From Anaeromonas frigoriresistens (lineage in GTDB: Bacteria > Bacillota > Clostridia > Tissierellales > SIT17), in assembly GCF_016820655.1 (NCBI RefSeq), contig NZ_WSFT01000005.1, forward strand, positions 1-64,000: 64,000 bases of DNA, in the 5' to 3' direction. Position numbers and translations under genes: made by a program. Below, piece by piece: positions 54,176 through 64,000 of this stretch. Each line of letters begins with the position of its first letter. Position 1 is the first letter of the stretch. Under the pieces are notes generated by a model, which worked only from the letters and a program-made list of their open reading frames with translations, ran no database searches and was not told the DNA's origin.

Positions 54176-54520
54176 ATATGAGTAAGTCAGATGATCGCAT
54201 GCTTTTGCATGAGGAAAGTCCGAGCTCCGTAGGGCAAGGGTGCTGGGTAATGCCCAGTGGGGGTGACCCCAAGGATAGTGCAACAGAAATAGACCGCCTG
54301 CTTATAGCAGGTAAGGATGGAAAGGTGAGGTAAGAGCTCACCAGCAGCTAGGCGACTAGTTGGCTCTGTAAACCCCACCCGGAGCAAGACCAAGTAGGGA
54401 CCATATGACAAGCGGCTGCCCGTCGCTGTCCCGTAGGTAGGTTGCTGGAGTCTACTGGTAACAGTAGACCTAGAAAGATGATCGTCCAATACAGAACTCG
54501 GCTTATAGACTTACTTGTAT
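54176..54520 (+). ncRNA. rnpB: RNase P RNA
   Basis: Catalytic RNA that matures tRNA 5' ends. The conserved GAGGAAAGTCCGAGC (P4 5' side) lies near 54211, AGTGCAACAGAAATAGACCGCC near 54278, and ACAGAACTCGGCTTATAG near 54491. The ends are set by helix P1: ATATGAGTAAGTC (54176-54188) pairs with GACTTACTTGTAT (54508-54520), with two G-U pairs. Protein-like reading frames on the opposite strand are not real. It ends the conserved housekeeping region. Confidence 0.97.
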
Positions 54521-54528
54521 ACACTATG

Positions 54529-55890: not shown

Positions 55891-58422
55891 TTAATAACCT
55901 CTACCAAATAAATTCCCTAAAATAGATTTTGCTTTATTTATATTTAAAGAATTGAAATCGGGCAGATTTAAATCAAAATTAATAGTTTCCAGTTTATGAG
56001 TATCATAATACTTTTCTTGAATCTGTTGCTCAATATTGTTATATCCAGTAGGAGTTATTACCAGTATATCAAATCCTAGTAAATTTAAAAATCCTAAAAC
56101 AATAGAATCTTCATCATTGAATAAATCTTCAGTATTATCAAATATAATTAGCTTTGGTACTTTAAAAGGATAGTCAAAGCGTTGAATAGCTTTAAGTATT
56201 CTATCATCTAAGGATAAAAGGGTTATAAGAATTTTAAGTTTATATTCTTTGCTATTATTCTTTTTAAGCATATCAGATTTCATTAATATATTTATTTTAT
56301 CAAGAATAGTTTCTTGAAGGGCAGTGCTTAAATAAGCATATTTATAAACTTGGTGCCCAAATAATCGTCTTCTATCAATCCCTTTATCATTTATTAGAAA
56401 GCTAGCTGTATACATATCTGACTGCCTAAAAATAGGTTTTGTAAAAGGCACTTTATCGTGGAATATTACTTGATTTACTGATTGAAATTGTTTTACCTCA
56501 TTCCAATACTTATTTAAATCTTGGTAGGTTCCACTAATCTTTGCAAATAAATTTGGAATATAAACTGTTCCATTTTCTACTTTAAATCCGGTTCGCATCC
56601 TAGATTCTTCATCCCATAGTATCATTAACTCTTCATAAGTTGTTTTAAGAGTTACATGGGAGGTTTGATAGGATTCAAACTGCCAAGGCTTATATAAACC
56701 ATCTTGTTCATCATGGATTACCTTAGAAATTTCTTCAGATGCTTTATATGCATTTGTCTCTACCCTTATAACCACATCTTCCTTTGGGAATTCCTTCATT
56801 GGTATTTTATTTTTAAAATGAAGAGATCTAGAATAAGTCTCATCTTTATCAAAGGATTCAAAAGCTTCATCAGAAAAAGAATTTAAATATAATATATCAG
56901 ATCCTAACTTAGATAAAAGTACTAAGAAGTAAATTTCATGTTCCTTTATGTCTCCGTAATATAGTATCTTAGGGTTTTTTATAGGCGACTTATTATCTCT
57001 AAAGTCCACCCCTGTAAAAAGATTCTTAGCATATTGATTTATCCAAATAAGTAATTTTAAGGCAAAGTTTTTAACTTTATTTATATTGGTACTTTTAGAT
57101 TTACTTATATATAAATCTAAAATAAATCTGAAGCTTTTTATAAGGGTATTATTTAATAATTCATTTTTAAAGACGGGAAAAGATTTAGTTTGAACAAACC
57201 TTGCTACTATTAAATCTGGAGTAGAATTGTTTATACTTTTTACTTCATTCCAAATACTTCTTGTCTTTTCAATTAACTCTTGATTGTGGGTTAGAGGAAT
57301 TTGGTTTAAAAATTTTATATAATAATTATCTAATGAAGAAAGCTTTTTATCTAAATTATACAATATATGATAATATTCATCTGTCTTTTTATCTGTACCT
57401 ATATATCTGTAGAAATAAATAGGAACAAAAGGAGTAGTGCTTTCTATATATCCAGCCCTATGATTTACTGGAAGAAAGATATCTTCAAATAGGTCACTAG
57501 TTTTCTTAGGAGATGTATTTACAATATCCTTATCATCGATATTCAAATTAATATTATATTCTACAGGAGTACTTTCGTTAGTATCTTTCCTTATAGGCTT
57601 TGTATTATTAGAACTTGTACTATTAACTTTAGTAGGAGTAGGCTTTAAACTTGGCTTCTTACAGGTAGGAAATTCTTTTATAATCCCGTTTTTTGGAAGT
57701 TTTATTGTATTAGGAATTTCATATACTAGTCCTTCTTTTTGAAAACTATTATTTAAACTAGGATTTATATATAATACATCCACTCCCAATTTATATAAAT
57801 AGGTTAAAAAATAGATCTCATGCTTTCTAATATCTCCATAGAATATTACCTTAGGGTTAATATTATTTTCTATAGATGTTCCTTGAAAATCACCTAATAA
57901 TTTAGGAATATAATCATTAATCCATGCAAAAAATTTAAGACAAAAATTTTTCACCTTTGATATGTTAATTATTTTTTCATTCTGAAAATAGAATTCTAAT
58001 AGATCATGGAAACTTTCAATCATGGACTTTCTGTATAAGGAATTATTTAATGATGGATATAGATTAATGTTTTTTAGATCATTAAATAGATTTTCCTTAT
58101 TAGTAGGTAATATAGGATTATATTTTTTCCATATAACATCAGTCATGGATACAAGATCAGTACGGGCTGGTATAGGAATACCATTGTCAAATCTTATATA
58201 TTGATTATTTAAACTTTTAAGTTTCTTATCTAGTTCATTAAGATCATTATAATATGTAGTTTCATCTTCTTTAGTTCCTATGTACTTATAATAATAGGTA
58301 GGAATAATTGGAGATTGTCCAATTCTAAAACCGTCCCTTTTATCTAGGGGCATAAAGATAGAGTTTAATGGATTATTTGATTGGGCTAAAGTTGCTCTAA
58401 TCATTTTTCTTATATCTAACAT
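55891..58422 (-). CDS. YceG-like protein with three tandem modules
   Basis: Protein of 843 residues, much longer than B. subtilis YceG (about 540). Three related modules can be seen. Module A (about 22-255) starts IFMPLDKRDG and has NPKVIFYGDIRKHEIYFL. Module B (about 314-575) starts IFLPVNHRAG and has NPKILYYGDIKEHEIYFL. Module C (about 586-820) is more diverged and has VPKLIIFDNTEDL. A Ser/Thr/Asn-rich linker joins A and B. The usual YceG probably equals B plus C, so A is an extra copy. YceG is treated as part of the biosynthetic side of Ter systems; no reaction is proven. It is cotranscribed with telA. Confidence 0.88.
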   Translation of the reverse strand: MLDIRKMIRATLAQSNNPLNSIFMPLDKRDGFRIGQSPIIPTYYYKYIGTKEDETTYYNDLNELDKKLKSLNNQYIRFDNGIPIPARTDLVSMTDVIWKKYNPILPTNKENLFNDLKNINLYPSLNNSLYRKSMIESFHDLLEFYFQNEKIINISKVKNFCLKFFAWINDYIPKLLGDFQGTSIENNINPKVIFYGDIRKHEIYFLTYLYKLGVDVLYINPSLNNSFQKEGLVYEIPNTIKLPKNGIIKEFPTCKKPSLKPTPTKVNSTSSNNTKPIRKDTNESTPVEYNINLNIDDKDIVNTSPKKTSDLFEDIFLPVNHRAGYIESTTPFVPIYFYRYIGTDKKTDEYYHILYNLDKKLSSLDNYYIKFLNQIPLTHNQELIEKTRSIWNEVKSINNSTPDLIVARFVQTKSFPVFKNELLNNTLIKSFRFILDLYISKSKSTNINKVKNFALKLLIWINQYAKNLFTGVDFRDNKSPIKNPKILYYGDIKEHEIYFLVLLSKLGSDILYLNSFSDEAFESFDKDETYSRSLHFKNKIPMKEFPKEDVVIRVETNAYKASEEISKVIHDEQDGLYKPWQFESYQTSHVTLKTTYEELMILWDEESRMRTGFKVENGTVYIPNLFAKISGTYQDLNKYWNEVKQFQSVNQVIFHDKVPFTKPIFRQSDMYTASFLINDKGIDRRRLFGHQVYKYAYLSTALQETILDKINILMKSDMLKKNNSKEYKLKILITLLSLDDRILKAIQRFDYPFKVPKLIIFDNTEDLFNDEDSIVLGFLNLLGFDILVITPTGYNNIEQQIQEKYYDTHKLETINFDLNLPDFNSLNINKAKSILGNLFGRGY

Positions 58423-58472: not shown

Positions 58473-58649
58473 TTAAAGATTCTTAGATTTGTATTTTAAT
58501 AATAGATCATCAATAGCTTCATCATGAAGTTTGGATTTACTAATCTTAGTTTTTCTTGCTAGTTCATCTAGCTTATCTACTAAATCCAATCTTAAAGTAG
58601 TAGTCACTCGTTTTCTAGTTTTAAGATTTTGCTGTGATGTATTCATCAT
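58473..58649 (-). CDS. Ribbon-helix-helix (CopG-type) regulator, 58 aa
   Basis: Short gene with GAGGAGG directly before two adjacent ATG codons (58649 and 58646; the second has the better spacing). The sequence KRVTTTLRLDLVDKLDELARKT is the beta-strand and first helix of an RHH DNA-binding protein. ISKSKLHDEAIDDLLLKY forms the second helix. It is the first gene of the leftward operon, 50 bases before the YceG-like gene. Paired direct repeats at its own promoter suggest autoregulation. Confidence 0.85.
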   Translation of the reverse strand: MMNTSQQNLKTRKRVTTTLRLDLVDKLDELARKTKISKSKLHDEAIDDLLLKYKSKNL

Positions 58650-58666: not shown

Positions 58667-58701
58667 CTATTGAACTCGAATATATCAACTATTGAACTCG
58701 A
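58667..58701. promoter_or_regulatory. Paired 13-bp direct repeats, probable RHH operator
   Basis: CTATTGAACTCGA occurs exactly at 58667-58679 and 58689-58701, 22 bases apart (two helical turns). One copy fills the -35/-10 spacer of the regulator promoter and the other abuts the -10 box. RHH proteins typically bind such repeats cooperatively. Confidence 0.7.
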
Positions 58702-60027: not shown

Positions 60028-60609
60028 ATGGCAGTTAGTTTAAAAAAGGGACAAAAAGTAGATTTAACTAAAACAAATCCAGGCCTTTCTAATGTTATAG
60101 TAGGCCTTGGATGGGACACTAACAAGTATGATGGAGGATTTGATTTTGACTTAGATACTTCAGCTTTCTTAATTGGAGAAAATGGTAAGACAATGAATGA
60201 TGGGGATTTTATCTTTTATGGAAATCTTAATCACTCTTCTGGAGCTGTATCCCACCTAGGTGACAATAGAAGTGGGGAAGGAGAGGGAGATGACGAGCAG
60301 ATAAAAGTAGATTTAAGTAAGGTTAATTCTAATGTTAGTAAAATAGCATTTACAGTAACAATACATGAAGCTCAAGAAAGAAGTCAAAATTTTGGTCAAG
60401 TTTCAAATGCATTTATTAGAGTTATTAATGAAGATACAAATGAAGAAATAACAAGATATGATTTAAGTGAAGATTACAGTATAGAAACAGCTATAGTAGT
60501 GGGGGAACTTTATAGGCATGGTGATGAATGGAAATTTGCTGCAATTGGAAGTGGATTTGAAGGCGGCCTAGCATCCCTTTGTAATAATTTTGGGATTAGT
60601 ATTGCTTAA
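60028..60609 (+). CDS. terD: TerD-family protein 1
   Basis: Calcium-binding TerD-domain protein of 193 residues. The N-terminus [30 protein letters not shown] and the acidic metal motif [15 protein letters not shown] are typical, and the ending [20 protein letters not shown] is conserved. Family knowledge: TerD proteins bind Ca2+ and act in stress and tellurite resistance with TerC and TelA. An AGGAGA site precedes the ATG. It is the first of three paralogues. Confidence 0.96.
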
Positions 60610-60633
60610 AAATGTATAGAAAGGGGAATATAA

Positions 60634-61212
60634 ATGGCAATTAATTTGAAAAAAGGTGAAAGAATTGATTTAACTAAAAGTAATCCTGGATTAAAGCAGG
60701 CGATAATTGGTCTTGGATGGGACACTAATAAGTATGCTGGAGGAGCAGATTTTGATTTAGATGCTTCAGTATTTATGGTAGGAAGCGATGGTAATGTTAA
60801 AAATGATGAAGATTTTATATTCTATAATAATTTAGAGCATCCAACAAAATCAGTTATACATACAGGAGATAATAGGACTGGTGAAGGAGAAGGAGACGAT
60901 GAAGCAATTATAATAGACTTCGGAAAAGTTCCTTCCCATATAGATAAAATAGCTATAACAGTAACAATCCATGATGCAGTTAATAGAGCTCAGAACTTTG
61001 GACAAGTTACCAATGCCTTTGTAAGGGTTTTAAATAAAGAAAATGACAACGAAATACTACGTTATGATTTAACAGAAGACTTCTCTATTGAAACAGCATT
61101 AATATTCTGTGAGTTATACCGTCATAACAATGAATGGAAATTTAGTGCAGTAGGAAGTGGATTCCAAGGTGGATTAGAATCTCTTTGTAAAAACTACGGA
61201 TTACAAGTATAA
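60634..61212 (+). CDS. terD: TerD-family protein 2
   Basis: TerD-domain protein of 192 residues, very similar to the first copy over its whole length. It has [25 protein letters not shown] and the acidic motif [23 protein letters not shown] is closer to canonical TerD than the corresponding DTSAFLIG of copy 1. It lies 24 bases downstream of copy 1 with AAAGGGGAA upstream. Confidence 0.96.
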
Positions 61213-61243
61213 AAATCGAAAATATAATCAGGGGGTAATATAA

Positions 61244-61855
61244 GTGGCTATTAATTTATCAAAAGGTCAAAGAATTAGTTTAACTAAAGACAATGAAGGT
61301 TTATCTAAAATTAAAGTTGGTCTTGGATGGGATCCTATTGAGCAACCTAGAAAAAAAGGGTTATTAGGTGCAATTATGGGTTCTAGTACCACAGATATGG
61401 ACTGTGATGCTTCTGTTTTTATGCTAGGTGAAAATGATAAAATGATCAGTGGACAAGATAGACTAATCTATTTTGGACATAAAACTAGTAATAATGGAAG
61501 TGTTCATCATACAGGAGATAATTTAACTGGGGAGGGAGAAGGTGACGATGAAACAATCATCGTTGACTTAAAGAACATCCCTAACAATGTTCATAAATTA
61601 GTATTTGTTGTAAACATTTATAACTGTGTAGCAAAAAGGCAACATTTTGGAATGGTACAAAATGCATATATAAGAGTTGTGAACTTAAGTAATAATCAAG
61701 AAATGATAAGATTTAATTTAACAGATCAATATACGGATAAAACTGGATTAATAGTAGGAGAAATATATAGAAATGGTAATGAATGGAAGTTCGGAGCATT
61801 AGGTGAAGGAACTGACGATACTTCATTAGAAACCCTGTCAAGAAGATATAAATAA
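61244..61855 (+). CDS. TerD-family protein 3 (diverged)
   Basis: TerD-domain protein of 203 residues, the most diverged of the three. After GLGWDP it has a basic insertion (about residues 30-45, EQPRKKGLLGAIMGSS) before MDCDASVFML. The acidic motif [15 protein letters not shown] is retained, so calcium binding is still likely. This form resembles the YceE-like branch. The start is GTG behind GGGGG. It ends the operon at a strong palindromic terminator. Confidence 0.93.
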   Translation: MAINLSKGQRISLTKDNEGLSKIKVGLGWDPIEQPRKKGLLGAIMGSSTTDMDCDASVFMLGENDKMISGQDRLIYFGHKTSNNGSVHHTGDNLTGEGEGDDETIIVDLKNIPNNVHKLVFVVNIYNCVAKRQHFGMVQNAYIRVVNLSNNQEMIRFNLTDQYTDKTGLIVGEIYRNGNEWKFGALGEGTDDTSLETLSRRYK

Positions 61856-63212: not shown

Positions 63213-64000
63213 TTGGAGAATGAAATTAAATATAATGTATTAGATAATTTAAAAATTAAATTAAGTATAGATAATAATAAGTTCAATATTTTACCAGAAG
63301 AGCTATTTTTAATAGCTGCAAGAAAAAATAAAAAGAGAAGTTTTCTATTTGTAAGTAAAGTATTAGGGAAGCATATACCAGTGGATCCTAAACTATCTCT
63401 CTTAGTAGGAAAACTTCTAGGTAATGAATATATCAAGCAAATATTAGGAGTAGAGTCTAAATCAACAGAAGATATAGTGAAGGCTTTAAATAAAAAAGAA
63501 AATATTGATAAAGTTTATGATAAAGCCTTTAATTATTTAGATGATTTACCTGAAAAGACCCTATTCATAGGATTTGCAGAAACTGCCACAGCTTTAGGAC
63601 ATTCAGTTTTTTCTTCCTTTAAAAGTAATGCCTATTATATCCATACAACTAGGGAAGAAATATTAGAATATAAAAACCCTATAAAATTCCAAGAGGAGCA
63701 TTCTCATGCTACTGGGCATAATCTCTATCCAGTAGATTTTGATATATTATCTTCTAAAGCACCTATAGTTTTTGTTGATGATGAAATAACAACAGGAAAA
63801 ACTACGTTGAATATAATAGAAGCTATCCACAAAAAATATCCAAGAAAAAATTATACTATTATTTCCATCTTAGATTGGAGAAAACAAGAAGATAAACAAA
63901 GGTTTAAAGAAGTAGAAGATAAACTAAAAATTAACATAAATACAATATCCTTATTATCTGGAAATATTAAAATAGAAGAAGATAGATTATCGGATTTAGA
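63213..64000 (+). CDS. Phosphoribosyltransferase of the Ter locus (cut by window end)
   Basis: At least 262 residues, open to the end of the window. The start is TTG behind AAGGAG, 18 bases after the previous stop. The PRPP loop is VFVDDEITTGKTTLN (about 186-200), with a preceding GFAETATALGHSVF block and a conserved EEHSHATGHNLYP stretch. This matches the orotate-PRTase-like proteins of Ter biosynthetic modules. Catalysis is probably base or amine transfer to PRPP; the acceptor is unknown. Downstream partners (ATP-grasp, HAD) would lie outside. Confidence 0.88.
   Translation, partial: MENEIKYNVLDNLKIKLSIDNNKFNILPEELFLIAARKNKKRSFLFVSKVLGKHIPVDPKLSLLVGKLLGNEYIKQILGVESKSTEDIVKALNKKENIDKVYDKAFNYLDDLPEKTLFIGFAETATALGHSVFSSFKSNAYYIHTTREEILEYKNPIKFQEEHSHATGHNLYPVDFDILSSKAPIVFVDDEITTGKTTLNIIEAIHKKYPRKNYTIISILDWRKQEDKQRFKEVEDKLKININTISLLSGNIKIEEDRLSDL

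Follow-up and report, generated by a model that had tools for sequence, protein, structure and literature searches.

The yceG gene of Anaeromonas frigoriresistens (positions 55891..58422, minus strand, of the 64,000-nucleotide stretch analysed here, referred to as the window) is a single intact ORF encoding an 843-aa protein of a tellurite/stress-resistance operon. The questions addressed here are how many YceG modules it contains, which of them is the extra one, and whether this arrangement is peculiar to the gene.

Module composition of the window YceG

The protein matched PF14266, a profile of 250 positions, three times with a total score of 444 bits (curated cut-off, 25), and PF14266 was the only Pfam family matched. 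In the whole-genome scan, the per-domain scores were 129.5, 169.4, and 171.2 bits for modules A, B, and C. The gene is single-copy, and no second yceG was found in the genome. The chain has the order A-linker-B-connector-C. Module A, the extra N-type module (residues 21–262), is encoded at 57637..58362 and is followed by a low-complexity A-B linker (residues 263–313, 57484..57636), all on the minus strand. The conserved core, in which an N-type and a C-type module are joined by a conserved connector, follows on the same strand as module B (residues 314–552, 56767..57483), the B-C connector (residues 553–597, 56632..56766), and module C (residues 598–822, 55957..56631). The family profile built in this work placed the modules at residues 21–283, 314–572, and 598–839.

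An initial sequence-only reading had described two long segments with the same order of motifs and a third, diverged copy at the end, spaced by 270–290 residues. All four quoted motifs are present: IFMPLDKRDG starts at residue 22 and FYGDIRKHEIYFL at 194 in module A, and IFLPVNHRAG starts at 315 and YYGDIKEHEIYFL at 488 in module B. In BLASTP, A and B were 36% identical over 233 aa (E 7e-48). The spacing holds for B to C (284 residues), but the A-to-B offset of 293–294 residues is slightly larger. Pairwise comparison of C with A and B was near chance (E 0.002 and 1.6). Profile-profile comparison, which had been suggested as a check, linked all three modules, with E values of 1e-61 for A-B, about 1.2e-6 for A-C, and 1.5e-7 for B-C; the reversed-profile controls gave E values above 0.2 (0.35–0.7). 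A separate set of alignments gave 6e-8 for the N-type versus C profiles. Core positions common to A, B, and C are an early R, F/Y-x-[RK]-x-x-G, a P-K pair ahead of the second core strand, and a late G-x-D; module A keeps R29, F/Y44, G49, W167, P190-K191, G196, E202, G213, and D215. The 843-aa protein is thus confirmed to consist of three tandem homologous YceG modules.

Identity and age of the extra module

When 82 modules were placed in a maximum-likelihood tree, every C module, whether from a two- or a three-module protein, fell in one clade (support 100/100), and A, B, the N modules of two-module proteins, and the single modules fused to proteases were on the opposite side. Since the modules group in this way, the two-module form corresponds to N + C, equal to B + C of the window protein. 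Judging from this phylogeny, the added piece is A, an N-type duplicate at the N-terminus, and not C. The terminal copy is indeed homologous (profile E about 1e-7), but it is not an addition: it is placed by the tree as the ancestral partner of the N-type module. It is also the best conserved of the three modules and has the highest Pfam score. The mean identity to relatives was 54% for the connector, 46% for C, 36% for B, 30% for A, and 16% for the A-B linker. No stretch of the protein is better conserved than the connector (RxETxAYxASxEI...YKPWQFExY...TLKTTY), and nothing equivalent follows module A.

A gene-internal duplication had also been suggested, and a duplication did happen, but the copy that it added is N-terminal and old. 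A recent duplication in this genome was rejected, since A and B are only 36% identical and module A is common to relatives in other families and orders. Comparison of module A with that of L104 gave dN of 0.34 and dS of about 2, the latter being saturated. Across most of the family, the R, W, PK, G, and G.D residues of A are kept at or near 100%, and the A modules of Oscillospiraceae are very weak (16–38 bits). Together, the sequence comparisons show that A arose from an N-type module by an old duplication, is under purifying constraint, and evolves faster than B and C.

The low conservation of A could mean that the duplication left it as a decaying or neutral leftover that has no separate function. 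It is the least conserved module and is barely recognisable in Oscillospiraceae, and in a tree of the B-C core some two-module forms branch from within groups of three-module forms, as loss of A would produce. We consider such a leftover unlikely: the core residues are kept in most of the family, A is retained across families and orders, and its amino-acid changes are far fewer than the synonymous ones.

The module-number label changes at least six times in the B-C core tree; L143, scored as two-module, lies at the end of a contig and could be truncated. These changes would fit one early gain followed by several losses as well. Placing all A modules in a single clade was disfavoured (AU p 0.024), and long branches leave the number of origins unsure.

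Distribution of two- and three-module YceG

PF14266 proteins are patchily distributed, being found in 5 of 60 close genomes, 14 of 291 genomes of the class, and 16 of 398 genomes of the phylum; all three searched genomes of the same genus lacked them. The 30 multi-module proteins first collected, from these genome searches and from annotated collections, comprised 16 with three modules and 14 with two, besides four proteins with a single N-type module. When GTDB genomes were scanned with a profile, a procedure biased towards query-like proteins, 63 three-module and 16 two-module ORFs were returned. When genome contigs were scanned, the single-protein query gave no match but an alignment query did.

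The sequence-only reading had allowed B. subtilis YceG only two modules, and two is the number in the Bacillus-type proteins of Bacillus sp. M6-12 (L156), Ureibacillus (L154 and L157), and Aneurinibacillus (L164); two-module forms were also found in Lactococcus, Alkaliphilus, Tepidibacter, and Acetoanaerobium. The third module is not a peculiarity of the window gene: three-module YceG is widespread in Clostridia, including Clostridium, Oceanirhabdus, Desulfosporosinus, Desulforamulus, Desulfotruncus, Dethiobacter, Anaerotruncus, and other Oscillospiraceae. The nearest relative found (62% identity) came from a Thermohalobacteraceae assembly. By these comparisons, three-module YceG is an old and common clostridial arrangement, and the window protein is largely ordinary.

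Two of the collected loci are unusual. The yceG of Clostridium bovifaecis (L138:7001-9504) is split between B and C into two overlapping ORFs, reflecting a frameshift or a sequencing error. A three-module yceG accompanied by telA and terD (L103:9444-11717) was found in an unverified human faecal scaffold labelled Bacteriophage sp. (MT836648.1), which is more probably of bacterial than of phage origin.

The Ter locus and its neighbours

Directly downstream of yceG, after a gap of 28 bases, lies its conserved neighbour telA (PF05816; 54765..55862, minus strand). The divergent side of the locus, on the plus strand, comprises a gene of the Na/Ca-exchanger family (PF01699; 58886..59989), three terD genes (PF02342; 60028-60609, 60634-61212, and 61244-61855, together 60028..61855), a C-C bond lyase gene of the Ter-linked biosynthetic set (PF15617; 61929..63194), and a PRTase_2-TRSP gene (63213..63998) that continues beyond the window end, where it is followed by StiP-PELOTA and HAD phosphatase genes. 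The terD paralogues, telA/yceG, and the biosynthetic genes therefore occur together in one locus. L070 and L159 likewise have the PF01699 gene placed between yceG and terD.

Whether they encode two or three modules, yceG genes are found in one and the same position, upstream of telA and in the vicinity of terD, CC-lyase, PRTase, StiP, and HAD genes. Since both forms share this type of locus, the third module is no marker of a different system. In a Clostridium group (L110, L113-L117, L125, L145, L161, and L167), telA was not seen beside yceG.

Directly upstream of yceG, at 58473-58649 on the minus strand, a 58-aa ribbon-helix-helix protein is encoded (PF12651, RHH_3; E 1e-12). A 12-base direct repeat, TATTGAACTCGA, is located just upstream of this gene (58668-58679 and 58690-58701) and could be a candidate operator of the protein. 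On the other side, an RNase P RNA gene (RF00010, 297.8 bits; 54179-54521, plus strand) adjoins telA, and the minus-strand ORFs overlapping it were rejected as genes.

In Bacillus subtilis, yceC-yceH (yceC-H) forms a stress operon of the sigma-W/B/M regulon (PMC3498285). Deletion of yceGH in Bacillus anthracis lowered resistance to reactive oxygen species (ROS) and competitive fitness (PMC6813211); this functional evidence concerns yceGH as a pair.

Predicted structure and fold

The AlphaFold2 model, based on an alignment of 62 sequences, had a mean pLDDT of 86.8 and contained three confident domains (about 92, in blocks mostly of 90–97). Residues 255–290 (pLDDT below 50) and 827–843 were disordered. 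Module A modelled alone without an alignment had a pLDDT of 37.7. Per-residue DSSP agreement was 93% for A/B, 75% for A/C, and 76% for B/C. To compare the three folds, secondary structure, profile alignment, and per-module PDB alignments were used rather than rmsd. The structure prediction thus agrees with a modular protein and, within what these comparisons can show, the full chain is predicted not to be one continuous non-repeated fold. The pTM of the full chain was 0.45, so the relative placement of the modules was not predicted. This bears on the possibility that A regulates the core by folding back on C or by competing with B for C, with the protein switched on under stress. Module A is of the same N type as B, and its leash of about 50 residues could reach C; this mode of action nevertheless appears quite improbable to us, no interdomain contact being predicted with confidence.

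Nearly all leading PDB fold matches were P-loop NTPases, with recurring regions at residues 16–242, 309–537, and 594–813. Each module aligned separately with AAA+ or SF1 helicase domains (Z 5–6.9, mostly 3.4–5 angstrom over about 115–137 residues); matches with Z below 8 are in the range of unrelated folds. With Foldseek, viral models yielded no more than weak helicase/ATPase matches. Searches by sequence with the full-length or the C profile found no solved relatives, and the N-type profile had only a chance-level match to lysyl oxidase (E 0.78). The predicted P-loop-like fold is a lead, not a result.

These alignments are relevant to the view of YceG as a multi-site enzyme of the Ter-linked biosynthetic set, in which every module would be an active site. 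YceG is encoded together with the set's enzymes (C-C lyase, PRTase-TRSP, StiP-PELOTA, and HAD), polar residues (R, E/D, and D) are conserved in each module, and each module aligns weakly, at Z 5–7, with P-loop ATPase domains. However, these Z values fall within the range of unrelated folds, and none of the 15 aligned N-type modules has the Walker A motif GxxxxGK[ST] in the loop that follows the first core strand; module C lacks the motif too. In module B this loop reads GTDKKTD, and it is not conserved. No catalytic motif was seen in the YceG modules, and we know of none for YceG. Moreover, YceG-TelA also occurs at many loci where no biosynthetic genes were seen nearby within the flanks examined. 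A multi-site enzyme, as the sequence-only reading had envisaged, is thus unsupported and seems to us a long shot; nucleotide binding by the weak P-loop-like fold is possible. The scaffold role proposed alongside it is likewise possible.

Single-module protease fusions

In four proteins of 455–479 aa, a single N-type YceG module is connected by a low-complexity linker to a Trypsin_2 protease domain (L074:9659-11089, L072:8129-9553, L090:9036-10475, and L097:1697-3064). The His and Ser motifs were found in all four, and the Asp motif was recognised by a simple pattern in two. No obvious export signal was present at the N-terminus of the L074 protein. The genomes encoding these fusions also have three-module YceG. 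Because the N-type module stands alone on a leash before the protease, it would work as a portable unit, and the fusions are a natural hint at its recognition role.

A speculative reading, to which we assign a low probability, is that YceG modules are related to P-loop NTPases but have lost the nucleotide pocket and turned into recognition domains. The N-type module would then be a portable reader of some ligand or partner in the Ter pathway, present in duplicate in three-module YceG and, in some clostridia, attached to a cytosolic trypsin-like protease. If this is true, the protease-fused module would aim proteolysis at a Ter-marked target.

Possible role of the extra module

We favour, at roughly even odds, an assembly or adaptor protein rather than a three-site enzyme. 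B-connector-C would be the conserved working unit, acting with TelA, and A, as the anatomy suggests, would be an additional, flexibly tethered interaction module of the N type that raises valency. Module A may bind the same kind of partner as B, such as TelA, TerD, or another Ter component, and this added contact would allow the Ter/TelA stress-response complex to be assembled or held more tightly. Co-location with telA is circumstantial as a sign of partnership. The faster evolution of A and its weakness in Oscillospiraceae speak against the valency model, as they would also fit a marginal function.

The results define the parts of a conserved stress-operon protein: an N-type module, a C-type module, a connector, and an optional extra N-type copy, the last being an old and common trait and not a one-off. 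Such a definition gives clean constructs for binding and structural work.

Comparison with known systems

The E. coli protein called YceG is MltG, a lytic transglycosylase of a different family, and has only the name in common with the protein analysed here (PMC8135044, PMC12288455). The window protein resembles the two-module PF14266 YceG_bac of Bacillus, Lactococcus, and Aneurinibacillus in module homology, in the B-C connector, and in the position of telA directly downstream with terD and biosynthetic genes nearby. It differs from them by one more N-type module and a disordered linker at the N-terminus (843 versus about 540 aa). No separate name for the three-module form was found.

The locus as a whole resembles the Ter-dependent stress response systems of Anantharaman, Iyer and Aravind (2012), as cited in PMC9604106, in having telA, yceG, three terD genes, and the C-C bond lyase, PRTase_2-TRSP, StiP-PELOTA, and HAD genes. 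It differs from these systems by the Na/Ca-exchanger family gene beside the set, the membrane protein next to terD being of PF01699, and no terC gene was noticed in the vicinity.

The closest counterparts are the three-module YceG proteins of Clostridium, Desulfosporosinus, Thermohalobacteraceae, and other groups, which share the full-length A-linker-B-connector-C organisation with up to 62% identity and show only ordinary sequence divergence, with nothing of substance setting the window protein apart. It belongs to a known family, of which it represents, in an ordinary way, the form common among clostridia. The more interesting leads lie to its side: the weak P-loop-NTPase-like fold without Walker A and the trypsin-like proteases in which a single N-type module sits on a similar leash.
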